This document shows positions 25,386 to 55,054 of a stretch of 64,000 bases of DNA, in pieces (positions within the stretch are counted from its first letter, which is position 1; the number at the start of each line of letters is the position of its first letter). The stretch covers positions 6,064,001-6,128,000 of the forward strand of contig NC_089274.1 of the NCBI RefSeq assembly GCF_963678975.1, given 5' to 3'. The translations under genes were made by a program, and so were the position numbers. The DNA comes from Dysidea avara. Taxonomy: Eukaryota; Porifera; Demospongiae; Dictyoceratida; Dysideidae. The notes beneath the pieces are model-generated. The model saw nothing but the letters and a program-made list of their open reading frames with translations. It was not told the origin of the DNA and did not search any database.

Positions 25386-25976
25386 TCCTTTTTGTTGAGG
25401 GCTTCCTCGGACACACTGCCCACTGCAGTCAACTTACGTCGTTGGCACATACAGAGTAATGCCAAATGTACCTTGTGTGACTTGATCCGGCCAACTACAG
25501 CCCATACTCTAGGTGGCTGCCCAGTGGCACTATCTCAACAGAGGTACACTTATCGTCACAATCAAGTTTTGCATATTTTAGTCTCCAAGTTGACAACCCT
25601 TTTTGCTGATCACCAAGATGTCAAGGTGTATGCTGACTTAAACCATAGATTTTAGAGGCGCGCAAGCGCCTTACGCGCCTCTAAAATCTATGCTTAAACG
25701 GTTTGTGCTTTAATGAATCGCCATGCACAGGAAATCATTCCTTCAACAGTATTGATCACACCTTATCGTCCTGACCTCATTCTCTATCATTCCCATTCTT
25801 CTTTGACAGGTATTATTGAATTAACTTGCCCTCTTGGCTCACGACAGTACCTTGAGTCTGCTCACTGTCGAAAGCAACAAAAGCCTGAATATTTGCAGCT
25901 GCTTGCAGAGTTGGACTGTTTGAACATCGCTAATTATTACAGTACTGTGGAAGTTAGTGTCTTGGGTCACTTACCA
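25386..25976 (+). pseudogene. R2-like LINE C-terminal part: CCHC finger and restriction-like endonuclease
   Basis: Site-specific LINEs of the R2 group end with a zinc finger and an endonuclease of restriction-enzyme type. Here FLLRASSDTLPTAVNLRRW precedes CTLC-x8-H-x4-C (exact C-x2-C-x8-H-x4-C spacing) and RYTYRHNQVLHIL (R-H-N box). After a 49-bp fold-back insertion (25644-25692) the frame resumes with TPYRPDLILYH, GIIELTCPLGSRQYLESA, RKQQKPEYLQLLAEL and NYYSTVEVSVLGH: a plausible PD-(D/E)xK core (PD, ELT, K). The reverse transcriptase is missing and the C-terminus is cut where the BEL/Pao integrase starts on the other strand. The family's C-terminal end is seen separately at 56780-57013. Confidence 0.72.
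25644..25692. mobile_element. 49-bp fold-back element with 7-bp target duplication
   Basis: Perfect 19-nt inverted arms CATAGATTTTAGAGGCGCG around an 11-nt loop, flanked on both sides by CTTAAAC (25637-25643 and 25693-25699). It interrupts the R2-like coding frame, which shows that it is an insertion. It shares its CATAGAT ends and 7-bp duplication with 48550-48585 and 54860-54899, and more weakly with 39122-39145. Confidence 0.85.
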
Positions 25977-26520
25977 TTAGGGAGAGCAAGTTTCCATTGT
26001 CCTTAAAAACTTTCCTCCATTCTATGTCCACAACTGTACGTACAAGCTTAAATTGAGGAGCATTATCTGAAATGATAACATCTGGTTTGCCTCTACGAGA
26101 GACAAATCTTCTTAAGCAATTGAGAAACTGGCTGGCTGACAAATCTAATGTCCATTCCAAGTGCATTGCTCTTATCGAGAGACATGTAAAAAGCCAGATC
26201 CAAATCTTCTTCAAATCAGATTCATACTTCACATTAATAAGTCCCAAATAATCTAAACCCACAAATTGGAAAGGATCAGATCTGGAAACTCGTTCCCTAG
26301 GCCAAGGCGGCATAGATGGGAGTCGAAATGATGGCCCTTCTAGTCTTAGACACAATAAACATTGAAACAATACTCTTCTGACTTCTGCCCTTACTTGTGG
26401 AATCCAGTACTCTTCTCTTATCTGGGCCAGTGTATGGGCAACACCAGCATGGATTATTCTACAATGCACTTCAGTGATCAATAAACTAGTAAGGTGTTCT
26501 CTTCTAGGAAGTAACTTAGG
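25976..26520 (-). pseudogene. BEL/Pao integrase fragment
   Basis: The frame shows the zinc-binding H-x-H ... CLLCLR pattern (H in EVHCR and IIHAG, C-x2-C in CLLC), FVGLDYLG with the first catalytic Asp, and IISDNAPQF with the second. It stops near WRKVFK, before the region holding the catalytic Glu, so the core is incomplete. Confidence 0.85.
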
Positions 26521-26522
26521 AT

Positions 26523-26836
26523 CTAATCCAAAACAGCCAAGCTGTAAAAAAAGTGTGCGGCCCTCAAAAAGGCTATGGTGAAAAAAGATGTGAAATCCAA
26601 GGTGGCGGCCAAGAAATGGCTGTGATGGTAGGTTAATGGTAAAAATTTTAATAACGACAATTCAGGTGAATTTGGTGCCACTTGGTCAATTGGCACAAAA
26701 TTCACCTGAATTGTTGTTATTAAAATTTTTACCATCACAGCCATTTCTTGGCCGCCATCTTGGATTTCACATCTTTTTTCACCATAGCCTTTTCAAGGGC
26801 CGCACTCCTTTTTCTACAGCTTGGCTGTTTTTAATC
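26523..26836. repeat. Long fold-back arms at one end of copy A
   Basis: Arms of about 145 nt from CCAAAACAGCCAAGCTGTAA to the centre near CACTTGGTCAATTGGCAC and back to TACAGCTTGGCTGTTTTT. A transcript or single strand would form one long hairpin. The equivalent in copy B is 53148-53454. Confidence 0.85.
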
Positions 26837-26871
26837 AGATTTCACTTCTTTTTGTATTTGTATACCCCACC

Positions 26872-26898
26872 CCAAAGCTGGCCTATGACCAGCTTTGG
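26872..26898. repeat. Small conserved hairpin in copy A
   Basis: CCAAAGCTGG and CCAGCTTTGG pair around a 7-nt loop. Copy B has CCAAAGCCGGCC/GGCCGGCTTTGG at 53094-53120: the T-A pair has become C-G on both sides, a compensatory change. Confidence 0.75.
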
Positions 26899-27049
26899 GC
26901 CTTTTTAACCTATATTTTTTTCTTTACCATAGGAAAAAGAAAAAGATGAAGCAGATTTTATAAATACTTTATAACTCATTCTGATTTTATCAGTAAATGT
27001 ACAAATTATATATATAATGCATATATTTATTACATGTCAATTAATCCCC

Positions 27050-28018
27050 ACAGGATAATTTGCAGCTGATCTCTCTACTGGGTGACTTGAAATGTAGCTG
27101 AACTCTCTACAGGGTGATTTGCTTGTACGTAGATGAACTCTTTACAGGATTCTCTCTACAGGGTGACTTGACTCTAGCTGAACTCTCTGCAGGGTTATCT
27201 GTTTGTAGTTGAATTCTCTACAGGGTGATTTGTTTGCAGCTGATCTCTCTGCAGGTTGATTTGTTTTAGCTGAACTCTCTACAGGGTGATTTACTTGTAG
27301 CTGAACTCCTTACATTTCTAGCTGATCTCTCTACAGGGTGATTTGTTTGTAGCTGATCTCTCTACAAGTTGATTTGTGTGTAGCTGATCTCTCTGCAGGT
27401 TGATTTGTTTGTAGCCAATATCTCTACAGGGTAATTTGTTTGTAGCTGAACTCTCTACAGGGTGATTGCTTGTAGCTGAACTCCTTACATTGTGTCTAGT
27501 TTCTAGCTGATGTCTCTACAGGGTGATTTTTTGTAGCTGAGCTCTCTACAGGGTGATTTGTTTCTAGCTTATCTCTCTACAGGTTGATTTGTGTGTAACT
27601 GATCTCTTAACAAGCTGATTTGTTTGTAGCTGATCTCTCTGCAGGTTGATCTGATCTCTCTACAAGTTGATTTGTTTGTTGCTGATCGCTCTAAAGGTTG
27701 ATTTGTTTGTAGCTGAACTCTCTGCAAAGTGTTTTGTTTGTAGCTGATCTCTCTACAGGGTAATTTGTTTGTAGCTGAACTCTCTCCACAGTGACTTGTG
27801 TGTAACTGAATTCTCTAGAGAGTGACTTAATTGTAGCTGAATTCTCTACAGGGTGCATGACTTGTTTATAGCTGAACTCTCTTCAGTGTGACTTGTAATG
27901 TTCTGAATCTCTACAGTGATATATTTGCTTAACTCTCTACATGCAGGGTGACTTGCTTCTTGCTAAACTGTCTATAAGATTAACTGTTTGCAGCTGAACT
28001 CCCTACAGAATAACATAG
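27050..28018. repeat. Minisatellite array of copy A (about 30-bp units)
   Basis: Roughly 30 imperfect units built on TTTGTAGCTGAACTCTCTAC followed by AGGGTGATTTG, alternating AACTC and ATCTC versions. Unit lengths vary through small indels. It is the reverse-complement family of the larger array at 49425-52640. Confidence 0.88.
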
Positions 28019-28048
28019 AATTCTATAATGGAGTAAATAAATTAGCCG

Positions 28049-28093
28049 AATGCTCTATTAGGGTGACTGTTCTATTAGAGTATCTCGATCTCG
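28049..28093 (+). repeat. CTCTATTAGAG motif in copy A
   Basis: Two units, AATGCTCTATTAGGGTGA and CTGTTCTATTAGAGTA, then TCTCGATCTCG. It lies at the junction of the array and the conserved segment, exactly as in copy B (49371-49420). Confidence 0.8.
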
Positions 28094-28866
28094 CATTTGC
28101 TACACGGAGTTGGCTTTCGAATCATAACTCAGTGGTTTGTACTCCGATTCTTCTGTACTACTGCAAGGACTTTCTATGAAGATTATTCCAGCTACACACC
28201 GATTTACAGCTCATTACTCTAAGCGGCTTGCCTAGTAGGCGTGAAAACTAATACTTTTTTATTCATAAAAATCGATCGCGTAATTGTGACACAGGTTGGG
28301 GTTTGTGTCATATCTCCATGGTCTTTATCTCGATTCCTTTCAAACCACCAAAAGGCACTACTACGATGGTTACTCCATCTACATAGCAATTTTCAACTCA
28401 TTCCATGAAGCGATTTACCCTGTAGGCGTGACAACAAATCGGTCTTGTTTTACGCGAATAATCGGTCATAAATCCTGAGCTATTCATCGGATTAGCACCC
28501 AATTTGATGCTAGGATTCGCCTTTGGACTCCCGTTCTGTGTGCCAAATTTCAAGGCGATCGGAATACGCGTTTGCGTTTTATAGCAATTTTTGCAAGTGT
28601 GCGAAAACACGAAGAAAAAAACGAAGGGAAAAATCGAAATATTGGCAGCTCGTATCTCGGAAATGGCTGGAGCGATTTCCTTCAAATTTGGAATGTAGAC
28701 TCCCCTGGCTGGCGGGAAACTCTGTAACAAATTTGATTCCAATCGGATAAGGGATCACCGAGATACAAAGGTGTGAAAATGACGTTTTCTTTTTCCCTGT
28801 TAATATACTCACGGTGTGGCGCGCCGGCTTCTTGGGCCGCACAACACACTACCGTGTGTCTTGATG

Positions 28867-29840
28867 TTTCGCATTCTCAGTTAGAGTGGTATTCAAGAAT
28901 CTTCCGTAACATCTCAGTATACCTAAGTCATCAATCTTCAATCCAAGTAGTCAACAAAACATGTGTCTTTCCAATAATCTCTCTCCAAGTCACTGAGAAG
29001 TTTTCGTAAAGTAGAATATTTTGTTTCATCAAGTCCACATACAGATAATTTCTCATCCTGTTTACCATGAGTCACGACATTAGAACACTCATATAACACT
29101 CTTCCAGTCTTAGTTTCTGCTTCCACATCTTGTAGTACTGGCTGTGGAGGTTGCCACTTAGGCCAAGAATCACGTGAAGACATTAGCCACTCTGGCCCAT
29201 TCCACCAAAGTCTCGACTGTTCAATCTCAGGTACTGTTAATTCCCGAGTTGGAAAATCAGCTGGATTTTCACCTGATGGTACATAATAAAATAAATCACC
29301 TTGCCTTTGAATTTCCTTCATACGGTTATCCACGAACAATGATAGTGGTTTGTTAGTTCGAAGCCAGTACAAAACACAGGTAGAATCTGTCCAGATTGTT
29401 CGTTTTAAAGAGGGGATCTTCAGTTCCCTAGTGACAAAATTAGCAGCACGGACTCCAATAGTCACTGCCAATAACTCTAAATGTGGAAGAGTAATTTCCT
29501 TCTTAGGCTTTTTGCTGTTTTCTGTATCAATCAATACCAATCTCAGTTTTGAAAACACTACATTAACTTTAACATTATCCTGATACTCAGCACGAAGATA
29601 TATCACAGTGGCATATGCCCTTTTGGAGGCATCACAAAACACGACAAGTTCATAGTTACAAGTATCACTCACATGACCAATAAAACGAGGTATCTTCAGT
29701 TGTGAGATTAGCTTCAACTTCTTCAAGACACCGTTCCATCTGTTGTGTAACATCTCAGGTAATGGCTCATCCCATGTTAGTCCCTCTTTCCACAATTCTT
29801 GGATAAATACCTTTCCATAGAACAACACAGGAGTAACCAA
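28867..29840 (-). pseudogene. BEL/Pao connection and RNase H region
   Basis: FIGHVSDTCNYELVVFCDAS (RNase H start with Asp), a PHLELLAVTIGVRAA segment, and IWTDSTCVLYWL (second Asp) mark RNase H. The frame ends at a stop in VDYLD, but a related frame continues (DDLGILRCYGRF) up to the insertion border at 28866, so a shift occurred near 28940. That second part is the usual lead-in to integrase. Confidence 0.82.
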
Positions 29841-30622
29841 CCTAAAGGATCAAAAATTTTACCAATAACTTTCAACATTTCCCTTTTAGTAGGTGTTACA
29901 TCTTCATCAGAAAGAATGATACCTTGAATTTGTAAAAGGTCATCTGTACAATTCCACACTATCCCAAAGGCCTTCACAACACATCCTTCTGATCTCTCAG
30001 CAGTTGGTAACAAATTCAAAAACTCAGAAGAATTAGACATCCACTCTCTTAAATTCATACATGCCTTTTGAAAACTTCTTTGTTCAACTGACGTAGCTCC
30101 CAGCATCACATTGTCAACATATATATTGTCACCAATAGACTGAGCAACTGGAGTTCTTAACTGTTTCAAATGAAAATTAACTGTTCCAGCTAACAAAAAT
30201 GGGCTACAGATGATCCCAAACGGAACATGGCAAAATCTGTACACATCATATTCTGACACTCTCACATCATCAACATCTTTAAACCATAAGAACTTTGTCA
30301 CATCTCTGTCTGGTTCCTGAATTCCCACTTGTAAAAAGGCATTCTCGATATCCGCAAGTACTGCTATGGGATGAAGTCGTAGTCGAAATAAAATTCCACA
30401 AAGATCTGGTAGAAGTACTGGTCCATGATACAAACACTCATTGAGGCTTTTAGCTCCTTTCTTGGACTTCACTGACGCATCATACACCACTTGTAATTTC
30501 GTAGTGTTCTTAGTAGGTGTCAAAATTGGGTGGTGAGGCAGATAATGTTTTAAAGTTTCTTTCATATCTTTAACTACTCTTTCCACCACTCCTTGTTTTT
30601 TTCTGACTTTGAATAACTTCAT
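29777..30622 (-). pseudogene. BEL/Pao reverse transcriptase
   Basis: Contains LQVVYDASVKSKKGAKSLNE, VLADIENAFLQVGI (first catalytic Asp), FGIICSPFLLAGT, and DNIYVDNVMLG at the active site, where the second Asp of the usual YVDD is Asn. Whether that is a family feature or a defect cannot be decided here. Adjacent frames overlap at both ends, meaning at least two shifts. Confidence 0.85.
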
Positions 30623-31112
30623 TGTACCTCATTAAAAGATCTTTATCCCTTTCAAAACGTTTTGCTAAAGACCTCATCCTACTCATAGCAACCTCAAAAT
30701 TTTCCGGAAGATCAGGATACTCACACTTCCAAGGCCAGGTAACGTAGTATCTTCCATTCTCACAATAAATTGACTTGTTAAACTGTTCCAGGGCTCTATC
30801 ATCATTGGTAATGTCCAATGATTCTACAATACCAATTGTTTCCAAGTTCCAGAGATCCTCAACATTAGGATTCCCAGTGACTGGGCTATCAGCAGATGAC
30901 AACAAATTCATTGCTGGTACAACACAGTTAATTTGTGTCATAACAAGACATGATGATACAGGTATCCCCTTCTGACAGCTCTTGGGATCCAGGTAACTTC
31001 CAGTTAAAATATAACCAATCTTAGATGATATAAGGAACAGTCCTGATGGTAACACTATCTTCTCCGTACCAACAACTGACCAAAAATAATCCGAACCTAT
31101 CAATAGATCCAC
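30570..31112 (-). pseudogene. BEL/Pao protease-RT linker region
   Basis: MDLLIGSDYFWSVVG and SSKIGYILTGSY are the conserved blocks between protease and RT in BEL/Pao Pol; a segment with VEDLWNLETIGI and RMRSLAKRF follows. It runs into the RT in another frame near 30600. Confidence 0.8.
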
Positions 31113-31240
31113 AGAATATGGTTCTGAGTTTCCTACAGTAGGAATAGAATCAGCTAATCTATCAGTTGAAATGGACCTCAGAAATCCATGTCTGCAGGTT
31201 GTAGAGGTCCTCTTTGAATTGGTTGTGTTATTTGTTCAAT

Positions 31241-31297
31241 GACATTAGCGTGAAAATATGACATTAGCGTGAAAATATGACATTAGCGTGAAAATGC
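31241..31297. repeat. 19-bp tandem triplication inside the retrotransposon
   Basis: GACATTAGCGTGAAAATAT occurs three times in a row, the last with one change. Since 19 is not a multiple of 3, the expansion shifts the frame and introduces the stop that ends the Gag-protease frame. Confidence 0.9.
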
Positions 31298-32526
31298 ATA
31301 CAACATTTGTCCTTTGTTATTACATTAAACTCAACAACATATGTACTCACATCTTGTGGCTTCCTAGCAGCAAAGGTTGAAACTGATAATGACTCCTTGT
31401 ACTGTGGGGTTAACTGTAATTGTTTTGCTAACTTTTTAGTCATAAAGGAGTGATGGCTGGCACTATCAAGAAGTACCTTGACTAAGATAGTCTTCCTTTT
31501 ATCACTTGACTGCACTGGGACTATAGCAGTCTGAAGTAAAACCCGCTCACCAGAACTGACCAATGTCTGGGTTTGAACACTTGTGGAGTTTAAGACTTCC
31601 ACTTTCTCTGCTTCATTATCGTCTAGTTGAGTAGGTGCTACAACTACATTTTCACTCTTCGGTTGAGGTTGAGCCAAATTTCCAAACCTCAGTGGGCAAA
31701 TAGCCCGATTGTGATGTCTCCTCTTCCCACAGTAATAACATCCACTCTTCTGAACAAATGAACAATCTCTAAACACATGGCCAGTCTTCAAACACAGAAA
31801 ACATCGTCCTTGACTGAGCAATCGTTGCTTACGATCAGACAACTCTCTATATTGATCACACTCATCATTAAAATGCTCACCTTGACAAAATACACAAGGA
31901 TTATACACAAATTTACTTCTCCTTTGAACATTAGTTGTAAAGGTTTCCACAGAAACTGAGGATGGTTTTGTATCCCTGTTATGATCATTCAGGTATCGAT
32001 TATACCTCTGATAACCCTGACAAGTTTCACCATCCCTTACTCCAGTTACATATCCTTTAACGTTAGCAAAGTGTCTCTGAGCATTCTCCTGCGTTTCCAC
32101 ATACTGACTTAGTAACTTTTGCAACAGTTCCATCGTCCACACTTGGCCAAATGTTTTGGTATCCTCTAACTTCAAAATAACATCAAGAGGAAACTTACTA
32201 AGAATCTGATGAATCAATATCTTCTGGCCATTAACATTCTCTCCCTGTGATTCCAATTGTCGAAGAACCCTCTCAATATTTTCATACGTTCTATTAAATC
32301 TCTGTGATGCTGTTGATAAATGCTGAAGCTTAGAATAAAGCATCTCAATGATAGAATCCGGTCTTCCAAACTTCTGCTTCAATAGAGTAACAGCCACATC
32401 ATAATTACCGTTAGTGAGCGCAATTCCCGAAATAGCTGTAACGGCTGCTCCACGAAGGGCTCCCTTCAAAAAACTAAACTTCGACACTAGCAATATTTTG
32501 TTTGTCCACGGACGATTCGAAAGCAT
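31264..32526 (-). pseudogene. BEL/Pao Gag zinc-knuckle region and protease
   Basis: 420 codons. FLKGALRGAAVTAISGI starts the Gag-like domain; cysteine clusters include CFLC-x4-H-x4-C and CYYC-x5-H-x4-C knuckles (nucleic-acid binding). VKVLLDSASHHSFM is the aspartic protease active-site region, with DSA where many families have DSG/DTG. The frame ends in a 19-bp triplication (31241-31297), which brings in the stop. Confidence 0.85.
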
Positions 32527-32558
32527 CCCAAAATTCAGGCCATTTCAAAATATTTCCA

Positions 32559-33085
32559 TCAAAGTTTGGTAGGTAAAGTTTCGGAAGACGCATTGCTGCA
32601 TGTATCAGCTGATAAGGATGTATCTAAAGTTCGAGGGGTCAACTGTGTTAATGACAAACTCTCTTGAACTGCTGCACGTGATGCTTGTACTGCTACGTGT
32701 TCAATCATGCCTGCCTGAGAAGAGGTCAAGGTCGATACACGACTGGCTTCCAGGTTAACCTTGTCGCGTTTTCGAGAAATAAATGTTATTCTAGCTTTCA
32801 GTCTGGCAACTACTCCATTTCCAGTGATGATAGCTTCAATAAATCCTTCATCTCCTTCAGCAGTACGCGCATATTCCTTTTCATCGGTAGCTTTCGCTTC
32901 TCCTTTCAAGTCCTTCATTATTCCCGTCCAGTCTTTGTTGCATCTCTCCAGCATCGATACGTACGTTAAGCGTCAACCTATTCATTAAGGTTTCTGCATC
33001 CATTTCCTCCTTATCCAGGTCTTCTCCTTCAAGTCCAGTTTGCCAGTAGAAGAATGTTTTTTGCTTCTTCAATAGCTCGTTCAAC
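32559..33085 (-). pseudogene. BEL/Pao Gag N-terminal part
   Basis: Two overlapping minus-strand frames (33087-32881, starting MLNELLKKQKTFFYWQTG, and 32954-32559) make a charged, partly coiled-coil-like N-terminal Gag segment with a shift near 32940. Another shift separates it from the knuckle region at 32526. The upstream end coincides with a hAT-like insertion. Confidence 0.65.
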
Positions 33086-33752
33086 ATAGGCGGATCTGAG
33101 GGGGGGCCAAGGGGTGCTGTGCCCCCCCTGGCCCTTCTCTTGCCCCCCTTGGACCTACAGTACTATATTGATACCAGGAACTACTTAACTAGAATCATGC
33201 ATTCACACTGTATTCAGAAGTATAGAAAGCCAATAGGCAAATAGAAGACAGCAGTTATAAATGTACGCTATAGCTAAACTGTACATTGTAAAGAAATCAA
33301 GGAAAATAAATTGAATTTTGTGCAAAGGTCGAGATACTCTAATAGAGCAGTCACTACTCTAACAGAACAGTCGCAATTTACAATTTTTACAAATCATAAC
33401 AAAACTAGCTACTCCTTGTTTTGATTTAGTATACACTTTACCATCAAACAGGTTTATCTCAGATAGGCTATACCAATCTTTGTACGCATTGCAAAGCATA
33501 CACTTTGTTAGCTAAGTGCTATCAAAATTCTCTCAAATTCAACCCTAGGAGGTCTAATTTTTAAAAATTTTCTCCTACTACAGTCTAAAAATTGTATGTC
33601 CATCATTCATCCAGCTATATGTTGAATAAAGTTATGCAAATGAATAAAACTTGTGTACTAGAATTCCATTCTTATCCTCTTAGTGGAATAAACACTGTTG
33701 TGCACTTAAACTTCTTGCCCCCCCTTGACAGTGTCTCCTAGATCCGCCTATG
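33086..33752. mobile_element. hAT-like element with GGCGGATC ends
   Basis: Ends ATAGGCGGATCTGAGG and TAGATCCGCCTAT are inverted copies and belong to the same end type as 53595-54429 and 55278-55580. The flanks share CTCGTT (33077-33082; 33754-33759), a possible degraded target duplication. G- and C-runs follow each end. It contains the CTCTATTAGAG motif (33328-33373). It interrupts the 5' part of the BEL/Pao element. Confidence 0.65.
33328..33373 (-). repeat. CTCTATTAGAG motif in the hAT-like element
   Basis: Reverse orientation: GTCGAGATACTCTAATAGAG then CAGTCACTACTCTAACAGAA. Two units. Confidence 0.75.
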
Positions 33753-33820
33753 ACTCGTTGTACCCGGGACTTCGCTGGTCCTATAAGCCTTCGAATGGGT
33801 CCTGACATCGTGAATGTACC

Positions 33821-34104
33821 TAGTCTGGCGCCGCCCGCCCCTTCGCATAAAGTAAGGGTCTGGTGAAATACAGATACTAAATCATTTCTAGCGCCCAGAT
33901 TCGGCGCTAGCCAATTAGTGCATGCCAATGACGTTCACACAGAAATCGCCTTGGCAACACAATACTTTTGTTCGAATTGAAGTGCAATTATCTGACGTAA
34001 CAAGCATTACGTGCGCTGTCTAATTGAATTCCTTTTGAAATGATTAGGTATTTGTATTTCACCAGACCCTTACTTTTTGCGAAGGGGCGGGCGGCGCCAG
34101 ACTA
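33821..34104. mobile_element. Mutator-type MITE (284 bp, 9-bp duplication)
   Basis: Inverted ends of about 48 bp starting TAGTCTGGCGCCGCCCGCCC, flanked by exact GAATGTACC on both sides (33812-33820, 34105-34113). Long terminal repeats plus a 9-bp duplication are the mark of Mutator-like elements. Confidence 0.9.
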
Positions 34105-35634: not shown

Positions 35635-35827
35635 TTGATCACACTAGATCTTTGTGGCATGCCAGTAAATTTTTTTTTACTTTGTCATCAGGCGGATCAG
35701 TAACAAGGTTACAAGTTCTGTTTGAACAAGACAGGTGTTAAACTGGGATTTCGTGCAATACGTGGCATTTGAATTTCGTCGGTTGAAGTGAGTGAACACG
35801 TAATCTTCACCGCAGTGTGCTAGGACT

Positions 35828-38831: not shown

Positions 38832-39300
38832 GGGGCGGATCCAGGACCTGGAAAGGGGAGGGGCACAAACAGGCAAGTTGTAGGTGGTTAGGGAAAGCCA
38901 GATCCACATATAGTTGCTGCATTTTTGAAGCAGCAAATAATACATCTCTTAGTAGTATCTCACTTTTGATATTTACCATTTTGGCCTTTTCAGATGATCG
39001 TGAAGTCTTTAAAGCTGTTTAAAAGGCTCAGAATGTCTTAAACAACAGTAACATGATAATTATTTTAGAGGCGCTTAGTACGTACGAAGGTGCTGGGTGA
39101 TAATTTCATAGCTAGTTTAACTATAGAGTGTAGACACACTCTATGGTTTGACTTTAGTTTCTGGTGAAATGCTAGTAAAAAATATGCATATTTTGGTGTG
39201 AGTTTTATTAGCTGATCTTGGCATAAAGTTTAGTATTTTAATCAGAAGTATAGCTATGGCTCCTCCATGAGGGGGGGACATTGCCCAAATGCCCCATCCT
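38832..39300. mobile_element. Partial hAT-like element (GGCGGATCC end)
   Basis: It starts GGGGCGGATCCAGGACCTGG like 55278-55580, and near 39266-39293 has GGGGGGGACATTGCCCAAAT and GCCCCATCC like the right part of that element, but the terminal GGATCCGCC is lost. Contains the 24-bp fold-back at 39122. Confidence 0.45.
39122..39145. mobile_element. 24-bp fold-back element, candidate fourth copy
   Basis: TATAGAGTGT and ACACTCTATG pair around AGAC. Flanks GTTTAAC (39115-39121) and GTTTGAC (39146-39152) match at 6 of 7 positions. It is shorter and less exact than the three other copies, so less certain. Confidence 0.5.
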
Positions 39301-45094: not shown

Positions 45095-46573
45095 TATGTT
45101 CCTACATTTACCAGGTGGAAAGGATTTTTATTGGGCTTATATGAAGCTGTAGACACTTCTGGGTAGTGGCTGTTGTGCCACCAATCTCCCACCACCTTTG
45201 ACCTTCTATAGCTAGTCTTGCAGTGTGTTAATGAAGACATCAATGTCTGTATTATTATTATGCATACAATAACAATCATAATGAATATACACAATAATGA
45301 TAATTGTGGTACATCAACGTCATACATGCAACTCCAATATATTATCTGCATAATAGTAGCTTGCGTATAAAGTACATTAAAGTTTGAAAAAGTGAGGTTA
45401 AAAATTGCATCTCATGGCATGGCAGTGGTATTCATCTTAACACTGCAAACCTCTGTGGCCATTTTGTCTGTGTTCTGTTAACATGTGGCTTGAATACCAC
45501 GAGTGAAGTCGAGCCAAGCAATAAAGTGCTTTATTGGCACATCCTCAGCCGTAGGAATCAACCCAAAAAAAATATATTCCTTCATAAACATGTGCACTAC
45601 GCACACACACACACACATACACAAAATAGAGCAAAGCTTTTGGTCATATATCGCTATCCGTGAACCAGTTCAGACACCTCTGCGATACTCAGGTGCTAAG
45701 AGTCAGCCCATTCCAATCCTCCAGGGAAAGGACTAGTGACCCACATACAAGAACAACAACAACAACCTTTCCTGGAGAAATGCTCACATGTGCAAGTTAA
45801 GGTACGTAGAACTAGACTAAGTTATGAATCCAAGCTGTACGGTTCTTTGCATATTGCCAAAGGATCAAGCTGATACCTGATCTGTGTGTTCAGTAATTTT
45901 AGTGTCAAAATTTCTGGCTAAACAGATTTAGCCTTCTTTGTGTGATCCCAAGTATAAGCACACAATACAGTATGTGTGTGAGTATACATGCGTACATGCA
46001 CACACAGAGACACAGACACAAATATACACACAAAGGAATTCCAGTAGCTGCAGCTATTGCCACCTAGCAAACACACCACATATCACATCACACATGTACA
46101 CTGGACACACACTTATACTCTATATAGCGCATGTACACACATAGAAACCTAACCAATGTAAGTTGAATTAATGCACAGTAGTTCTGGATGGGAGATGTAT
46201 GAATCCTATAGTACATGCATAGAATGGTTGTTGGCAGGTCAAGTGCTGAGACTATGCTTTAACCTTTACATATGGTTCTAATATAACATACACAACACAG
46301 GACACATAGTGATATTTTGCACTCTAAATGCAAGGGTATATAGTCAAGGGTTTCTGAAGACTCGAAAGCCTCCTTTTTCCAGTATCAGAACATTTTAAAG
46401 TTAAAAGTTACGCCAAACGTAAGTTCTGGAGCTCTGCAGTAGCTATACTTGCACACTGGTGCTGCACTGCACTACTCCTGAGGATCACATACCACTAACA
46501 ATATGAATCAATCATTTCTTCAATAGGTATATCATAATATAATACATTATGAATCAGTGTTATGAATATTTAC
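45095..46573. repeat. CA-rich spacer with a short CA microsatellite
   Basis: CA repeats at 45602-45620 and a wider CA-rich stretch at about 45940-46140. The open frames here (45503, 45938) follow that composition. No gene recognised. Confidence 0.45.
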
Positions 46574-46756
46574 GTTGTGAATGCATGTGGATATTGGAAA
46601 ACAAGAGTAAAGACATCTGGATTTACTTTGACCATCAGCAGGGAAAGGAGCAAGAATAATGTTTATATTTGGAAGAAAGTTTTGCCAACCAAGACACTCA
46701 GACGTGGAGAAAGCAGGAATACTAAACATTAAAGTTGGTTGGCCATCAGTACGTAT
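46574..46756 (-). CDS. Candidate exon of an unidentified gene
   Basis: 183 bp, symmetric phase 0-0, with acceptor CTCTTCCAG and donor AAC|GTAAAT. Encodes a Cys/Trp/Phe-rich segment (IRTDGQPTLMFSIPAF, TSECLGWQNFLPNI). No family recognised and no partner exons found, so it is weakly supported. It could be chance. Confidence 0.25.
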
Positions 46757-47362
46757 CTGGAAGAGAAAGAATATTAGTTCTATATAGGCCTAGAACTGCA
46801 GTGTATATTTCAACTAGAAAGATGCATATGCACTAACTTTAATGTAACCACCTAGAGCTCAGTTTGCATATACATTCATAGGTGCTTCTAAGAGATCACC
46901 CCGTCTCGGATCACCCCAAACTTTCCCCAAAGATAATTTTTTTCTGAATCCCCATGGTCATTCCCTCTTGGCTATGCTCCTGACATATGCATTTGGTGAC
47001 AGTGGCAGCAGAGGGGAGCACAGAGAGGTTGGAGCCATTAACTTTAAGGGGAGAGGGGTAGAGTCCTACGATATTACCTTGCATGACATCATGAGTCTAT
47101 GACATGATTAAATACTGGCATGATTTTTGAATTGGCAGTTATATAATTATTAAATAGGTATGTATGTCTGATAGTCAAATAACTTGACAATATTTTTTTG
47201 TAAAGCCAAAGTGTCACCAACTTCAATTTCAAGGCACCTCAGTATATTTCAACAATTTCATGCCCTCCTATAAGAGGCATGCTATGCTAAGTGTCCATTG
47301 CATGCTGTTGTAATCACTAGTACAAACATAAACAAGTACGTACTACTCCAGCCTCCATTTGA
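46757..47362. other. Unassigned, nothing recognised
   Basis: No frame or repeat supported before the LINE start. Confidence 0.4.
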
Positions 47363-48431
47363 GTGTCAATAGTTTCTGTGAATGGTTCAATGTCTGGTTG
47401 GAGTGATGTAATAAGTGGAATACCTCAAGGATCAGTCTTGGGTCCTCTCTTCTTTGCAATTTTCATCAATGATCTGCCATCATTATTAAGGAATAAAGTT
47501 CTTTTATTTGCAGATGACACAAAAATATATTCCAGCATTAGTCGTGCTAACCCAATATCCTCCCTGCAAGATGATATTAAAGCTTGCATTGAATGGTCAG
47601 TAATGTGGCAGTTGCCTTTCACCATTTCTAAATGTAAAATACTACATATAGGTCAGTTTAATCCAAGATATTGTTATAAGATGGATGGGATGGACATTGT
47701 TAAGGTAAATGAGGAAAAGGATTTGGGGGTGTTGATTGATGGCAATCTCAAGTTTCATAGTCAGTGTTCGGCAGTGGTTAATAAGGCTAATAGACTTCTT
47801 GGCCTTATTAAACAGACCTTTTCGGATATTTCTGTAGATTCATTTACATGTTTATACAAATCAATAGTACGTCCTATTTTAGAATATGGTAACTTGGTTT
47901 GGGGACCTTACTATAAAACAGACATCCAAAAATTAGAAAAAATCCAACGGAAAGCAACTAGAATGATCAAATCTATAAGAAATCTTGACTACGAGGAACG
48001 ATTGAAAGTACTTAACTTGCCATCATTACATTATAGACGTTATAGAGGTGACATGATTGCTGTCTACAATATGCTACATGATAAGTATGATATAGACCAT
48101 TCTGATTTTTTTACTTTTTCACCCATTACCCATACCAGAGGTCATACATTTAAGCTATTTAAATATTTTTCAAGAACAGATGCCAGGAAATATTTTTTTA
48201 CAAGAAGAGTTGTTGAGCCATGGAATAATTTACCCCAAGAAGTAGCATGTGCAGCATCAGTTGATGATTTTAAGAAATTGATTGACCAATATTCATCTAA
48301 CACTATGTATAAATGTATGTAATTAGTCTACTTGTACTTTTTTTACCTGTTGATCAGGTGTAACAGGCTGTTTAGCCTTATAAATTACCTGTAATAAATA
48401 ATAATAAAAAATAATAATAATAATAATAATA
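47363..48431 (+). mobile_element. CR1/jockey-type LINE, 5'-truncated, with open RT C-terminal half
   Basis: A single uninterrupted 319-codon frame: VNGSMSGWSDVISGIPQGSV, LFADDTKIY (catalytic Asp pair), KDLGVLIDGNLKFHSQC, IVRPILEYGNLVWGP, LEKIQRKATRM and a YFFTRRVVEPWNNLPQE end, then a stop at 48322, a short 3' UTR and a TAA-repeat tail. The fingers and endonuclease are missing. The lack of stops and the long simple tail point to a fairly recent insertion, from a different family than the LINE at 4085. Confidence 0.88.
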
Positions 48432-48549
48432 TTTAAGCCTAGTTTCATTCCCAGATCTAGCTACCTCCGTCCCCCAAATTTTTCACATTCCTCAGCCTCT
48501 GAGTTCGCACTTGACACTGACAACCACACACAGTGAGCCACAGATATAT

Positions 48550-48585
48550 CATAGATTATCTACTCACCTGGGTAGATAATCTATA
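48550..48585. mobile_element. 36-bp fold-back element with 7-bp target duplication
   Basis: CATAGATTATCTAC and GTAGATAATCTATA pair around an 8-nt loop (one mismatch at the outermost base). GATATAT lies on both sides (48543-48549, 48586-48592). Same end type as 25644-25692 and 54860-54899. It lies 12 bp from the border of composite copy B. Confidence 0.75.
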
Positions 48586-49370
48586 GATATATGATATCAA
48601 GACACACGGTAGTGTGTCGTGCGGCCCAAGAAGCCGGCGCGTAACACCCGTGAGTATATTGACAGGAAGAAAGAAAACGCAATTTTCGCACCTCCGTAGC
48701 TCTGTGCTTCCTTGCCGATTTTTGCTGTGGACATGCCCTCCAACTGCAGCACTCCACATTCCAAATTTGAGCGAAATCGCTTCGCGCGTTCCCGAGATAT
48801 GCGACTTCAAAAATTGGCTCAGTTTCTTCGTGTTTTTTCTTCTTTTTCTTTTTCTTGTCGCACACTTACAAAAACTGCTATAAAACTCGAACGCCATATC
48901 CGATTGCCTTACAATTTGGCACACAGAAGGGGGATATAAAGGCGCATCTCGGTACCAACTTTGGCTGGAATACGATGAACAGGCAAAGAGTTATGAGCGA
49001 TTATTCACGAAAAATAACACCAATATGTTGTCACGCCTACAGGGTTAACCGCGTATGGGAAGAAGCTGAAAATTGGTGGGTGAATAGGTTAACTATTGAA
49101 CCTCAAACCGTTTGTGGTTTGAAAGAAATCAAGCTAAAAACCAGGAAGATACAACGAAAAAACCAACAGTGTGTAACAATTACGCGATCGAGATTAGCTA
49201 ATAAAAAAACGACTGCTTGCCACGCCTACCAGATAAACCGCTTGGGGTAATGCTTTGAAAATCGTTGTACAGATAGAGTAATCATCTCAGAAAGGCTCAT
49301 CAATGGTGTAGAAGAATCAGACTTAAAGCCACGGAGTTATAACACGAAATCCAAATTGGTGCAGCAAGTG

Positions 49371-49420
49371 CGAGATCGAGATACTCTAATAGAGCAGTCA
49401 TCCTAATAGAGCAGTCACCC
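49371..49420 (-). repeat. CTCTATTAGAG motif in copy B
   Basis: GATCGAGATACTCTAATAGAG is the reverse of the usual unit, followed by CAGTCATCCTAATAGAGCAG. Adjoins the array. Confidence 0.8.
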
Positions 49421-49424
49421 TGAA

Positions 49425-52400
49425 GAGAATTCAAGAGATCAGCTAGAAACTAGAAACCTGTATAGAGATCAGCTACACACAAGTCACCCTGTAGAGAGAT
49501 CAGCTAGAAGAAGTTACCTTGTAGGGAGTTCATGCAACTATGGAAAGGGATAGTTCAGCTAGAAAAAATCACCTTGTAGAGTTCAGCTACAAAGAAACCA
49601 CCATGTAGAGAGTTCAGCTACAAACAAATCGCCCTGTGGAGAGATCAATACAAGAAGTTACCTTGCAGAGAGTTCAGCTACAAAGAAACCATCATGTAAA
49701 GAGTTCAGCTACAAACAAATCTCCCTGTAGAGAGATTAGCTAGAAGAAGTTACCTTGTAGAGAGTTCAGCTACAAAGAAACCATCATGTAGAGAGTTCAG
49801 CTACAAACAAATCTCCCTGTAGAGAGATCGGCTAGAAGAAGTTACCTTGTAGAGAGTTCAGCTACAAAGAAACCATTCTTTAAAGAGCTCAGCTGCAAAC
49901 AAATCACCTGTACAGAATTCAGCTACAAATAAATTACCCTGTAGAAAGATGAGCTAGAAAAAGTTATCTTGTAGAGAGTTCAGTTACAAAGAAACCACCA
50001 TGTAGAGAATTCAGCTACAAACTAGTGACCCTGTAAAGACATCAGCTAGAAGAAGTTACCTTGAGAGAGTTCAGCTACAAAGAAACCATTATTTAAAGAG
50101 CTCAGCTGCAAACAAATCACCTATACAGAATTCAACTACAAACAAATCACCATGTAGAGAGATCAGCTAGAAGAAGTTATCTTGTAGATAGTTCAGCTAC
50201 AAGCAAATCACCCTGTAGAGAGATCAGCTAGAAGTTTACTTGTAGAGAGTTCAGCTACAAAGAAACCATATTTAGAGAGTTCAGCTTCAAACAAATCACC
50301 TGTAGAGAGTTCAGCTACAAACAAATCTCCCTGTAGAGAGATCAGCTAGAAGAAGTTACCTTGTAGAGAGTTCAGCTACAAACAAATCACCCTGTAGAAA
50401 GATCAGCTAGAAGAAGTCACCTTGTAGAAAGTTCAGTTACAAAGAAACTACCATGTAGAGAGTTCAGCTACAAACTAGTCACCTTGTAGAGACATCAGCT
50501 AGAAGAAGATACCTTGTAGAGAGTTCAGCTACAAAGAAACCATTCTGTTTAGAGCTCAGCTGCAAACAAATCACCTGTACAGAATTCAGCTACAAACAAA
50601 TCACCCTGTACAGAGGTCAGCTAGAAGAAATTACCTTGTACATAGTTCAGCTACAAAGAAACCACCAAGTAGAGAGTTCAGCTGCAAAGAAATCACCTTG
50701 TATAAAATTCTGCCACAAACAAATTGCCCTGTAGAAAGATCAGTTAGAAGAAGTTACCTTTTAGAGAGTTCAGCTACAAAGAAACCATTCTGTAAAGAGC
50801 TCAGCTGCAAACAAATCACCTATACAGAATTCAGCTACAAACAAATCACCCTGTAGAGAGATCAGCTAGAAGAAATTACTTTGTAGAGAGTTCAGCTACA
50901 AAGAAACCACCATGTAGAGAGTTCAGCTGCAAAGAAATCACCCTGTATAAAATTCTGCCACAAGCAAATTGCATTGTAGAAAGATCAAACAGATCTCCCT
51001 GTAGAGAGATCAGCTAGAAGAAATTACCTTGTAGAGATTTCAGCTACAAAGAAACCACCATGTAGAGAGTTCAGCTGCAAAGAAATCACCCTGTAGAAAA
51101 TGCAGCCACAAACAAATTGCCCTGTAGAAAGATCAGTTAGAAGAAGTTACCTTTTAGAGAGTTCAGCTACAAAGAAACCACCCTGTAGAGAGATCAGCTA
51201 GAAGAAGTTACCTTGTAGATCGTTCAGCTACAAACAAATCACCCTGTAGAGAGATCAGCTAGAAGAAGTTACCTTGTAGACAGTTCAGCTACAAAGAAAC
51301 CACCCTGTAGAGAGATCAGCTAGAAGAAGTTACCTTGTAGATCGTTCAGCTACAAACAAATCACCCTGTAGAGAGATCACCTAGAAGAAGTTACCTTGTA
51401 GAGAGTTCAGCTACAAAGAAACCATTTTGTAAAGAGCTCAGCTGCAAACAAATCACTTGTACAGAATTCAGCTATGAACAAATCACCCTGTAGAGAGATC
51501 AGCTAGAAGAAGTTACCTTGTAGATAGTTCAGCTACAAACAAATCTCCCTGTAGAGATCAGCTAGAAGAAATTACCTTGTAGAGAGTTCAGCTACAAAGA
51601 AACCACCATGTAGAGAGTTCAGCTGCAAAGAAATCACCCTGTAGAAAATTCTGCCAGAAACAAATTTCCCTGTAGAAAGATCAGTTATAAGAAGTTACCT
51701 TTTAGAGAGTTCAGCTACAAAGAAACCATTCTGTAAAGAGTTCAGCTGCAAACAAATCACCTGTACAGAATTCAGCTACAAACAAATCATTCTGTAGAGA
51801 GATCAGCTAGAAGAAGTTACCTTGTAGATAGTTCAGCTACAAACAAATCTCCCTGTAGAGATCAGCTAGAAGAAATTACCTTGTAGAGAGTTCAGCTTCA
51901 AAGAAACCATCATTTAGAAAGTTCAGCTTCAAACAAATCACCTGTAGAGAGTTCAGCTACAAACAAATCTCCCTGTAGAGAGATCAGCTAGAAGAAGTTA
52001 CCTTGTAGATAGTTCAGCTGCAAACAAATCTCCCTGTAGAGAGATCAGCTAGAAGAAGTTACCTTGTAGAGAGTGAAGCTACAAACAAATCACCCTATTG
52101 AAAGATCAGCTAGAAGAAGTCACCTTGTAGAAAGTTCAGTTACAAAAAGAAACCACCATGTAGAGAGTTCAGCTACAAACTAGTCACCTTGTAGAGACAT
52201 CAGCTAGAAAAGTTACCTTGTAGAGAGTTCAGCTACAAAGAAACCATTCTGTAAAGAGCTCAGCTGAAAACAAATCACCTGTACAGAATTCAGCTACAAA
52301 CAAATCACCCTGTAGAGAGATCAGCTAGAAGAAAATTACCTTGTAGATAGTTCAGCTACAAACAAATCACCCTGTAGAAAGATCAGTTAGAAGAAGTTAC

Positions 52401-52640
52401 TTTGTAGAGAGTTCAGCTACAAAGAAACCGTAAAGAGCTCAGCTGCAAACAAATCACCTGTACAGAATTCAACTACAAACAAATCACCCTGTAGAGAGAT
52501 CAGCTAGAAGAAGTTACCTTGTAGATAGTTCAGCTACAAACAAATCTCCCTGTAGAGAGATCAGCTAGAAGAAATTACCTTGTAGAGAGTTCAGCTACAA
52601 AGAAACCATCATGTAGAGAGTTCAGCTGCAAAGAAATCAC
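49425..52640. repeat. 3.2-kb minisatellite array with higher-order structure
   Basis: About 30-bp monomers of three main types alternate: AGAGATCAGCTAGAAGAAGT TACCTTGT, AGAGTTCAGCTACAAAGAAA CCACCATGT and AGAGTTCAGCTGCAAACAAA TCACCCTGT. Type order repeats in blocks of three to five monomers, so whole blocks have been duplicated. No coding frame. Confidence 0.9.
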
Positions 52641-52757
52641 CACTGCCCAAATTTCAAGGCAATAGCTCTTTCCAATCTGAAGTTATCAATTGTCAAAGTT
52701 GGCAAATTGGATGTGTGGAAGGCCCCTTTTCGCAAATCCGGCCACATATGTATTATA

Positions 52758-52996
52758 TGTGACCGGATTTACGAAAAAGGGTCTTCCACACACATCCAAT
52801 TCTATGAACTTGAATGACCATACCTTTATGCTCAAAGAAGATACTAACCTGAAATTTTGTTCATGTATTAACCTATGTTGTTACTCATCACTGTCCAAAT
52901 TTCAAGGCAATACTATTTTCCTATCTGACATTATGAACTGCCAACGTTCGTAAATAGGATGTGTGTGGAAGACCCCTTTTCGCAAATCCGGTCACA
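52758..52996. mobile_element. TGTGACCGG-type MITE, copy 2, inside composite copy B
   Basis: Ends TGTGACCGGATTTACGAAAA and TTTTCGCAAATCCGGTCACA with TA flanks. Directly before it (about 52703-52750) is the right end of another, truncated copy, so two copies lie in tandem. Absent from composite copy A. Confidence 0.72.
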
Positions 52997-53093
52997 TATA
53001 TAATTTGTACATTTACTGATAAAATATTTAAAGTACATCTACTTCATCTTTTCTTCTTCCTGTAGTAAAGAAAAAAAACAGGTTAAAAAAGTC

Positions 53094-53120
53094 CCAAAGC
53101 CGGCCATAGGCCGGCTTTGG
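53094..53120. repeat. Small conserved hairpin in copy B
   Basis: CCAAAGCCGGCC and GGCCGGCTTTGG, a perfect 12-bp stem around ATA. See 26872-26898 for the covarying counterpart. Confidence 0.8.
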
Positions 53121-53147
53121 GGTATACAAATACAAAAAGAAATGAAA

Positions 53148-53454
53148 TCTAATCCAAAACAGCCAAGCTGTAAAAAAGTGTGCTGCCCTCAGAAAGGCTA
53201 TGGTGAAAAAGATGTGAAATCCAAGGTGGCGGCCAAGAAATGGCTGTGATGGTAGGTTAATGGTAAAATTTTTAATAACGGCAATTCAGGTGAATTTTTG
53301 TGCCGCTTCACAAAATTCACCTGAATTGTCATTATTAAAATTTTTACCATTAACCTACCATCACTTGGCCGCCACCTTGGATTTCACATCTTTTTTCACC
53401 ATAGCCTTTCTGAGGGCCGCACACTTTTTTTACAGCTTGGCTGTTTTGGATTAG
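53148..53454. repeat. Long fold-back arms at one end of copy B
   Basis: Arms of about 148 nt meet at GTGCCGCTTCAC. The right arm has a small deletion relative to the left (near 53363). Both outer ends read AATCTAATCC/GGATTAGAT. Confidence 0.88.
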
Positions 53455-53594
53455 ATATTAACCCCACGTGATCCACTGCACTTTTCAATAAACTTAGTGT
53501 AGAGTCTACTCGTGACGAGATGCTGTAGTTGCCAATCTTCTCCTCAATTTGTCATACTGCCCTGATCTAGGTTTTAGGCTGCTTAGGGGGACTC

Positions 53595-54429
53595 AGGGGC
53601 GGATCTAGGATTTATAAAGGGGGGGGCTAAGTCAAGGTACTAATCTCTTGGGTAGAGGTGTTTCCCAGCATGCGAAGCATGCTGGAACTAGGGGGTCTGG
53701 GGGCATGCCCCCCCAGGAAAATTTTGAAAAATTGATGCTAAAATACTGCAATTTGGAGACATTTCCACATAAAATCCCTAATATTTTCTGCCTGTAGATA
53801 TTTTATATACTGCCTTTAGATTATAGGTATGGCTCTCTGAAGCATTTTGCTAATGGAAAAGTTTGGGTAGGTATGGACAACCAAGAATAGGTGCATGTTA
53901 GAATAATAATGTTGAAAGTAGAAAATTTTGAAATTTGAACAATACAAGATTGAATTTGAGAGCATTTTCAATGGTAATTGTGTACCTGAATTAAGTATTG
54001 CCATACATATTAACTACACAAGTAGATGAATGAAGCCCTTTTAACATGCAGACCAATGCACTTCATTGTATGTAGCTATAGGTGCAGGCAGATTTGGAAA
54101 AATTCCATAACAGAACCAACTACATGTTTCCAGTGAATGTTCTATTAGAGTAGTTAGCTGACTACTCTATTAGAGTATCTCGATCTTGTACGCCTCCAAT
54201 GCTGATCCTGGTCCTTGTTGCATAAACTTTAGCATAAATCCACTGATAATACTTTGGAAAGATGTTTATAAGGTGGTTTTATGAGTATTTGTATTATTAG
54301 TGATCATATAATTATGCTAAGACAAAATTTCATTATAATACTCAGCATATTGATCAAGTAAAGCCTAAATATGAAGGGGGGGGGGGGGGGGGGCTTCAGC
54401 CCCCAAAGCCCCCCCCTGGATCCGCCCCT
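53595..54429. mobile_element. hAT-like element with GGCGGATC ends (835 bp, 7-bp duplication)
   Basis: AGGGGCGGATCTAGG at the left, GGATCCGCCCCT at the right, and exact GGGACTC on both sides (53588-53594, 54430-54436). A run of 15 or more G near 54378 and the CTCTATTAGAG motif (54137-54188) are inside. No transposase frame. Confidence 0.8.
54137..54188 (+). repeat. CTCTATTAGAG motif in the hAT-like element
   Basis: Two units (ATGTTCTATTAGAGTAG, GACTACTCTATTAGAGTA) followed by TCTCGATCTTG. Confidence 0.8.
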
Positions 54430-54436
54430 GGGACTC

Positions 54437-54859
54437 TGATCTTTGGCTTACTCTCGTGACACAAGCAATTAAGTCTGGTTAGAATACTCTACACGTGATC
54501 AAAAACGGCGGTCAGAGGTCAAGCATTTTCCTTGACATACGTGTCTACTGTCATGGCAATTTTGCACGAACTGTTAAGACGGAACGGAAATTCGATGGCG
54601 CAATGTTAGCGCCGTTAAGTGCGTGAACCCAGGCGAGGCTTCTGGACATGTAGTGAAGACTCGACTGAAGAAAAGGAAGCGGTCTGACGTACGAGGGACT
54701 AACTACAGATTTCAGATGCCATGATAGATTCATTTTGTCTTAGTTTGACTCAGTTGACGTAATTTAAATGTTCTAGGCTCTAACTACCTCGCACATCAAC
54801 TGATCAGGTAGGTAGATAGCTACGGCTTGCGTGTGCTTTGATAATGTGCTGTGACGACC
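54437..54859. other. Unassigned, nothing recognised
   Basis: Somewhat GC-richer sequence; the minus-strand frame 54551-54733 has no recognisable motif. Confidence 0.4.
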
Positions 54860-54899
54860 CATAGATAATATATACCTCCGGAGGTATATATTATCTATG
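54860..54899. mobile_element. 40-bp perfect palindrome with 7-bp target duplication
   Basis: CATAGATAATATATACCTCC is followed directly by its reverse complement. GACGACC flanks both sides (54853-54859, 54900-54906). Third member of the small fold-back family. Confidence 0.88.
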
Positions 54900-55054
54900 G
54901 ACGACCATTACATTTGTTTGTTTTTGTAGTGATCAGTGACAAGGCACTTGGATTGGTTGCTTGGTTGATGAAATTGCAATCATTTGAAGATGTTACAGTA
55001 TCAAACGGGCCTTTAGATTTCATAGTAAGATTAAACAGTTGTATACATGCGGGA

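Follow-up and report, generated by a model that had tools for sequence, protein, structure and literature searches.

How do palindromes of a few dozen base pairs come to lie between direct repeats of 7 bp at four places in one stretch of sponge DNA? In the 64,000 nucleotides of Dysidea avara sequence analyzed here (the window), a first-pass annotation had reported three such fold-backs, each between exact repeats unlike those of the others, and a fourth with flanks agreeing at six of seven positions. The sequences and coordinates of all four were confirmed. They are listed with our interpretation, namely that these tiny palindromes are, with high probability, footprints from the excision of larger cut-and-paste transposons.

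25637..25643, strand (.): target duplication CTTAAAC, left copy
25644..25692, strand (.): 49-bp palindrome, probable excision footprint; two arms of one family with a short filler between them
25693..25699, strand (.): target duplication CTTAAAC, right copy
39115..39121, strand (.): flank GTTTAAC, left of the 24-bp palindrome
39122..39145, strand (.): 24-bp palindrome TATAGAGTGT...ACACTCTATG (ends TATAGA...TCTATG), probable aged footprint
39146-39152: flank GTTTGAC, right of the 24-bp palindrome, a 6/7 match to the left copy
48543..48549, strand (.): target duplication GATATAT, left copy
48550..48585, strand (.): 36-bp palindrome CATAGAT...ATCTATA (last base changed), probable footprint
48586..48592, strand (.): target duplication GATATAT, right copy
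54853..54859, strand (.): target duplication GACGACC, left copy
54860..54899, strand (.): 40-bp perfect palindrome, probable footprint
54900..54906, strand (.): target duplication GACGACC, right copy

The palindrome at 25644 breaks a coding frame, which we take by its appearance to be a retrotransposon relic and which remains frame-shifted even when the insert is removed. No similar phage record was matched by window positions 24500-27500.

Abundance and Target Duplications

Genome-wide, the pattern CATAGAT-N(6-36)-ATCTATG occurs 2956 times, compared with 269 occurrences of the reversed-pattern control. The same pair of ends at sizes above 50 bp is found only 360 times in the genome (control 62), and the palindrome sizes concentrate below 51 bp. 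The flanks were read at 50 listed places of the 2956, a non-random sample lying entirely within the first 10.8 Mb of contig C1, and these places collapse to 40 unique sites. Among the sites listed, 20 of the 40 have an exact 7-bp duplication, while the flanks differ by one base in 5, by two in 5 and by three to seven in 10. The duplication is thus kept with at most two mismatches at 30 of the 40 listed sites, and exact flank matches of 8 bp (0/40) or 6 bp (1/40) are absent or rare among them. In a cross-site control, the 7-bp flanks of different sites were identical in 1 of 1560 cases. The 10 sites with three or more mismatches are more than the control share (269/2956) alone explains; they are assumed to result from ageing or from flank deletion. 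The 20 exact duplications lean to GTNNNAC, with G at position 1 in 9, T at position 2 in 16, A at position 6 in 15 and C at position 7 in 11. A duplication of 7-8 bp with a palindromic GT...AC preference is characteristic of the P superfamily.

A scan that made no use of the terminal motif covered 264 kb (the window and loci L009-L028, 4 of these 20 loci adjoining the window) and collected palindromes 18-80 bp long that are flanked by exact 7-bp repeats. It returned 10 palindromes, against a total of 1 over 12 second-order Markov resamples of these sequences. CATAGA...TCTATG ends are found in four of the 10 and are absent among the entries listed with 6-, 8- or 9-bp repeats in the same scan. 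The other six are different short palindromes, and they are what can be said for the reading that all such structures are chance palindromes. That reading, to which we attach almost no probability, is already contradicted by the genome-wide excess and by the agreement of the listed flanks, save for a minority of the listed places. The first-pass observation itself is confirmed.

Shared Arms and Site-Specific Centres

The interiors of the palindromes had been described as differing completely. This has to be corrected, as arms are common to several sites, from the ends inward and over up to 23 nt, and it is the centres that differ between sites. For instance, the arm CATAGATATTAGA is present at five sites, each of which has its own exact duplication and its own centre. 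At 25644 the left arm consists of the 19 nt CATAGATTTTAGAGGCGCG, and the right arm of CATAGATTTTAGAGGCGCG and 4 nt more. The palindrome at 48550 has 14 nt of its left arm in common with the right arm of locus L104, and the one at 39122 shares 10 nt of its right arm with a 20-bp element of locus L020, flanked by GTAGTAC. At some sites the arms are unequally trimmed.

The 19-nt arm of 25644 defines arm family 1, which has 39 exact matches at 36 places. Of these places, 26 represent one 40-bp scar that multiplied as part of a larger repeat, the flank being identical on at least one side. The remaining sites are independent. Four of them have two arms, each with a centre unlike those of the others, and six have one arm; one of these six sits between two copies of GTTCAGG.

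These data bear on the idea that the palindromes are ultra-short MITEs, i.e., non-autonomous elements that are themselves copied and inserted by a transposase acting in trans. A constant 7-bp duplication, conserved ends, a high number and ends common to long elements are all in keeping with it. A MITE should, however, be found as the same whole element at many unrelated sites with a separate duplication at each, and no whole palindrome recurred at two of 50 unique sites. The one multiplied palindrome travels within a larger repeat, and sizes of 20-50 bp are far below the ends of 138 and 216 bp reported as necessary for P elements in the available part of the source (PMC1562414). Ultra-short MITEs are therefore improbable. 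Nor do the data support the first-pass proposal of a transposase that inserts tiny hairpins by recognizing about 6 terminal bases and a stem, as only arms recur and centres vary. The claim that the palindromes are real insertions stands in so far as real events took place and duplicated 7 bp of the target, but the palindrome as such was probably not the inserted unit.

Long Transposons with the Same Ends

The first-pass annotation had suggested looking for a longer element that ends alike, and for one palindrome such an element exists. The arm at 54860 is identical at 23 of 24 nt to the terminal repeat of long elements. The 24-nt version of this arm has 92 matches in the genome (control 0), forming 21 inward-facing pairs, where about 0.04 are expected, no outward-facing pair and 1 same-strand pair. 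Five of the inward pairs are tiny (49-53 bp) and 16 are long (2.0-8.9 kb), mostly near 4.5 kb, with seven near 4.47 kb. The arm of family 1 gave another result, as no long inward-facing pair is present among its 39 exact matches.

Long transposons might have been cut down to their two ends in place by replication or repair errors, without ever being excised. Copies shortened to 2.04 and 2.06 kb do exist alongside those of 4.47 kb, but random deletions should spread across sizes, whereas the palindromes bunch below 51 bp and their arms do not exceed about 26 nt. In the single family examined, that of the 54860 arm, just two exact-ended pairs lie between 53 bp and 4.4 kb. Such extreme internal deletion is considered very improbable. 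Another process that inserts hairpins, e.g., one in which a folded single strand is captured at a break, would also give self-complementary products. A duplication of constant 7-bp length and a target preference are, however, transposase traits, and this process also fits poorly with a conserved terminal CATAGAT (which is also the search pattern) and with identical arms on long elements; we regard it as scarcely credible.

Excision Footprints as the Preferred Reading

Most likely, a long transposon was inserted and, on its departure, left the palindrome behind. A transposon with inverted ends starting with CATAGAT would insert and duplicate 7 bp of the target; the duplication is seen at the palindrome sites, and a long element is its presumed maker. 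Arm lengths of about 22-26 nt suggest a staggered cut deep within the terminal repeat. At excision, the transposase would cut one strand at about that distance within the element, so that stubs of the inverted ends would remain attached to the flanks. Repair by the cell would then unite these stubs, either blunt, through annealing of self-complementary tips of short length, or with a short filler. The 54860 palindrome, for example, would consist of two 22-nt stubs sharing a self-complementary CCGG overlap. The scar would be self-complementary because both stubs copy one inverted repeat, arms would differ because transposon families differ, and centres would be site-specific because of trimming and filler. 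The intact duplication on both sides and the unique junction at each site, with trimming and filler, agree with this scheme.

Against the footprint reading stand the 10 listed sites with poorly matching flanks, the lack of a long pair among the exact matches of arm family 1, the absence of PF12017 matches from the 16 long intervals, and scars that seem more numerous than long copies, which requires frequent excision or loss of the parents. Tentatively, at somewhat below even chances, we advance the possibility of a P-like transposase whose cut lies about 24-26 nt in from the ends, a depth one and a half times that of the fly enzyme, and of germ-line end joining so frequent that scars outnumber surviving transposons.

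Several candidate parents were rejected. Five of the six one-armed sites of arm family 1 were followed as possible element ends, over 1.5 kb (L005, L006), 6 kb (L090 continuing L070) or 5 kb (L091 for L082, L092 for L073), and within these distances no CTATG was followed by a copy of the site's 7-mer, allowing up to two mismatches; the sixth, L071, was covered for 141 bp. At L073, an ATCTATG facing inward occurs at a distance of 225 bp, but its arm and flank do not match. L005 and L006 lie on either side of a Ty3/gypsy-like element and point away from it. The domain PF12017 has 18 matches in the genome, none of them inside the 16 long intervals. Among five of these loci that were examined, the sister pairs L093/L094 and L095/L096 end differently, in (C)GAGGGGTCCG, and contain domains of the Ulp1 and PHD types (in L095, Ulp1 is below the cut-off); L097 has look-alike frames. 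An arm-family-1 match 4.7 kb from a PF12017 match on contig C12 is the multiplied 40-bp scar, and a coincidence. Finally, in the 264 kb, CATAG...CTATG within 8 kb and with an exact 7-bp duplication was found five times; four of these are tiny palindromes, and the fifth (3,746 bp) has no further terminal repeat.

Implications

On the footprint reading, a puzzling hairpin-inserting process gives way to a known reaction at large scale. If the tentative possibility of a deep-cutting P-like transposase with frequent germ-line end joining is true, about 2,700 scars in one genome would document how microhomology-mediated (polymerase theta-like) repair has acted through evolutionary time, and which transposon families are otherwise gone. 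From such footprints, departed families could be counted, arm family 1 being one that has left scars and no long pair among its exact matches. Moreover, genome sequence would reveal how far inside its element a transposase cleaves, and germ-line end-joining junctions of natural origin could be studied by the thousand. The reading also cautions against annotating short palindromes between target duplications as tiny MITEs.

Comparison with Known Systems

In listings and abstract openings of the open-access literature, no genome-scale set of P-type excision footprints was found. In rice, 94 putative natural excisions of several superfamilies were described from a comparison of two species (available part of PMC4423477). 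As here, these are natural excision sites with deletions and fillers; long palindromic stubs do not figure in that part of the account.

Zebrafish Pdre2/THAP9 is an animal P-like element whose ends start with CATA (CATACCTGTCAAC), as they do here. According to the accessible portion of the report, its duplication is 8 bp instead of 7 bp and its excision products have larger flanking deletions (PMC10983969). Galileo, a member of the P superfamily, makes a 7-bp duplication with the palindromic preference GTANTAC, which is GTAGTAC in D. buzzatii, as stated in excerpts of two papers (PMC4168063, PMC2775673). The 7-bp length and the GTNNNAC bias are shared, and the L020 element has GTAGTAC exactly. 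Unlike Galileo as portrayed in those excerpts, with its very long terminal repeats, the elements studied here were recognized by a 24-nt end.

The P element of D. melanogaster makes a staggered cut 17 nt within its terminal repeat. Excision junctions of P{wa} in Drosophila lie between 8-bp duplications and have stubs of up to 17 nt, with microhomology joins, trimming and templated fillers, as far as the available sections go (PMC2895639). The palindromes resemble them in that intact target duplications enclose stubs of the two inverted ends, in their microhomology, blunt or templated-filler joins, in their trimmed and one-sided forms and in ends starting with CAT. They differ in stubs of up to about 24-26 nt and duplications of 7 bp, and in having built up in one genome, whereas the fly junctions came from a laboratory cross. 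The anatomy of the scar would thus be that of a Drosophila P-element excision junction with longer arms and a Galileo-like 7-bp duplication, and the palindromes are best read as a scar type already known from fruit-fly P elements, of which many have accumulated in one genome.

Abundance and flanks of the palindromes

The window occupies C3:6064001-6128000 in an assembly of 108 contigs (550.8 Mb), and its sequence has the character of an animal genome, with CpG at 0.45 of expectation. Retroelement frames are present, which we take to be of the LINE and BEL/Pao kinds. Upon re-reading, the four palindromes of the window have the positions and repeats that the first-pass annotation assigned to them:

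25644-25692, palindrome between exact 7-bp repeats
48550-48585, palindrome between exact 7-bp repeats
54860-54899, palindrome between exact 7-bp repeats
39122-39145, palindrome with 6 of 7 flanking bases repeated

The proposal that such palindromes and their repeats go beyond chance is borne out. The pattern CATAGAT-N(6-36)-ATCTATG occurs at 2956 places versus 269 for the reversed control, an excess of 2687. Flanks of 40 bp were read at 50 listed matches, all within the first 10.8 Mb of contig C1; as 10 of these have flanks matching another's, they were dropped, leaving 40 unique sites. Among these listed sites, an exact 7-bp duplication is present at 20, one mismatch is seen at five and two mismatches at another five, while an exact duplication of 8 bp occurs at none and of 6 bp at one. 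Pairing the flanks of different sites gives exact equality over 7 bp in 1 of 1560 cases. The remaining quarter (10/40) has three to seven mismatches and no recognisable duplication, which does not fit. Seven of the 40 listed sites are perfect palindromes, the median arm identity being 0.86. A motif-free scan of 264 kb found 10 palindromes between exact 7-bp repeats versus 1 in 12 Markov resamples; four of the 10 belong to the CATAGA...TCTATG family.

The 20 exact duplications reveal a palindromic preference, GTNNNAC: nine begin with G and 11 end with C, T is the second base in 16, and A is the sixth in 15. At one fetched locus (L020) the duplication is GTAGTAC, equal to the consensus published for the transposon Galileo in D. 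buzzatii; across six Drosophila genomes, the Galileo consensus is given as GTANTAC (PMC4168063, PMC2775673).

Recurrent arms and unique centres

Two-armed elements were compared in a set of 60 (the 50 listed places, the four of the window, two from L020 and one each from L026, L007, L088 and L003), reduced to 50 unique sites by removing 10 same-flank duplicates. No whole palindrome sequence is repeated among these 50 sites. Arms, i.e., palindrome halves, are shared from the end inward, with 23 nt as the longest agreement of any two sites. Arm CATAGATATTAGA recurs at five sites, each with its own centre and its own exact duplication.

Sites with arm CATAGATATTAGA and their duplications
L037, AGCTAAC
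L061, GTGGGAT
L065, CTTCCAC
L067, ATATATC
L047 (arm on one side only), TTCCTAC

Some elements have arms of unequal length (L044 keeps 24 nt or more on the left and 10 nt on the right). In others (L054, L104) the left arm is unlike the right one, which would be expected if the transposon had imperfect terminal repeats. The palindrome itself is probably not what was copied.

The arm of 25644-25692, CATAGATTTTAGAGGCGCG, has 39 exact matches at 36 places, all of which were read. At 26 of these places, one or both flanks are those of a single amplified repeat (CTGGAGC), so one excision scar was multiplied along with that repeat. The multiplied scar is 40 bp long, has the duplication CTGGAGC and lies inside a larger interspersed repeat (e.g., L003, L072, L113); it could help in dating the excision. 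The other ten places amount to nine sites, since L087 and L088 have common flanks. Counted independently, the family is represented at ten sites: four carry both arms (38, 40, 49 and 52 bp, each with a different centre) and six carry one, among them L071, with its single arm between two copies of GTTCAGG. As no long inward-facing pair occurs among the 39 exact matches, the parental element is either missing or now has different ends. At C1:54301528-54306646 (L005, L049, L006), a Ty3/gypsy-like LTR element separates two stubs of this arm, which point outward and lie 5.1 kb from each other.

Long elements with the same ends

A longer element with the same ends, which the first-pass annotation had suggested looking for, exists for the arm of 54860-54899. 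Its 24-nt version, CATAGATAATATATACCTCCGGAC, matches the genome 92 times versus none for the control and agrees with the window palindrome at 23 of 24 nt; the 40 bp of the latter can be read as two 22-nt stubs overlapping by CCGG. Neighbouring matches less than 12 kb apart form 21 inward-facing pairs (about 0.04 expected by chance), no outward-facing pair and one same-strand pair. Five of the 21 are short (49-53 bp) and 16 are long.

Lengths of the long inward-facing pairs of CATAGATAATATATACCTCCGGAC (bp)
2,043; 2,057
seven copies of 4,467 to 4,488
4,593; 4,601; 4,614; 4,968
6,395; 6,967; 8,882

Such lengths would be expected of a DNA transposon of about 4.47 kb that also has shortened and enlarged copies. 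Fifty of the 92 matches are unpaired. Three single arms (C1:2489682, which is L044, C1:21607520 and C1:63876216) are scars in which the second arm has been trimmed or altered, and some others may belong to long copies of which one end has changed.

A profile search with PF12017, a probe for P-type transposase genes, gave 18 matches, all above the cut-off. When the coordinates were compared by eye, the 16 long intervals contained none of them; the model covers a 73-residue HTH only, and a gene split by introns can escape this search. Of the 18 matches, five were retrieved as candidate parents, and four (L093-L096, on C3, C4, C12 and C1) lie in elements with other ends, (C)GAGGGGTCCG. These are large P-like elements whose frames of 1196-1244 aa include the PF12017 HTH, a PHD finger and a Ulp1-like region, and their copies are near-identical (99.7 and 99.2%).

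Size limit and other short palindromes

Elements of 51-81 bp number 360 genome-wide versus 62 for the control. Among those listed with sequence, self-complementary single elements are mostly 51-60 bp, and longer matches at C1:2811281, C1:21607486 and C1:49846542 are neighbouring scars. C1:38570526, a near-perfect palindrome of 60 bp, exceeds two 26-nt stubs. At C1:37082371 the arm is repeated once more inside the element, which resembles the templated fillers of fly excision junctions. An exception is C2:4414865-4414943 (79 bp), in which two exact 22-nt arms (CATAGATCTTTGACAGAGGGTA) surround 35 bp of unlike sequence, either a long filler or a true mini-element.

A second inverted-repeat family, probably an ordinary MITE of 62-74 bp, has arms TAATAACG...ATTATTA with CAATTCAGGTGAATTT and AAATTT-like flanking repeats:

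window 26649-26722
window 53272-53338
L012:2115-2176
L019:6342-6406

The motif-free scan additionally found tiny palindromes whose ends are of other kinds. They may have been left by other transposons or may be due to chance, and each lies between exact 7-bp repeats (CAGAATT, CTATTAG, TTCTACT and GAATTAT):

window 11571-11589
window 54149-54166
window 63274-63293
L026:6950-6971

Comparison with P elements

P transposase is described as making a staggered cut: one strand is cut at the element's 3′ end and the opposite strand 17 nt into the terminal repeat (PMC7776569), so that tails of 17 nt remain on the donor ends (PMC2895639). According to Table 1 of the latter source, joined tails gave the junction acccagac-CATGATGAAATAAC(AT)GTTATTTCATCATG-acccagac in 14 isolates, and further junctions show other microhomologies, trimming and templated insertions. 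A review describes the end-joining footprint as a joined overhang with target duplications on both sides (PMC3878927). The palindromes have the same anatomy: target sequence is duplicated around them, arms recur between sites and each centre is unique, trimming can be unequal, and size is limited; for one arm family there are also long elements that end in the arm. The long elements would have made the 7-bp duplications, and a P-like enzyme cutting with a stagger of about 22-26 nt may have left the stubs. We claim that these elements appear to work like the P element; membership of the P superfamily is not claimed, because the long intervals hold no PF12017 match and 10 of the 40 sites have no recognisable duplication. 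As weak evidence, the ends of the fly P element (PMC2895639) and of zebrafish Pdre2 (PMC10983969) begin with CAT, as they do here.

Natural excision scars are already known from rice comparisons (PMC4423477), and P-type footprints from experiments; among the matches listed from the open-access literature, no comparable genome-scale set of P-type footprints was found. Compared with these, the apparent novelty lies in how many occur in one genome (2687 above control), in arms that are longer, in the 7-bp form and in the large number of arm families.
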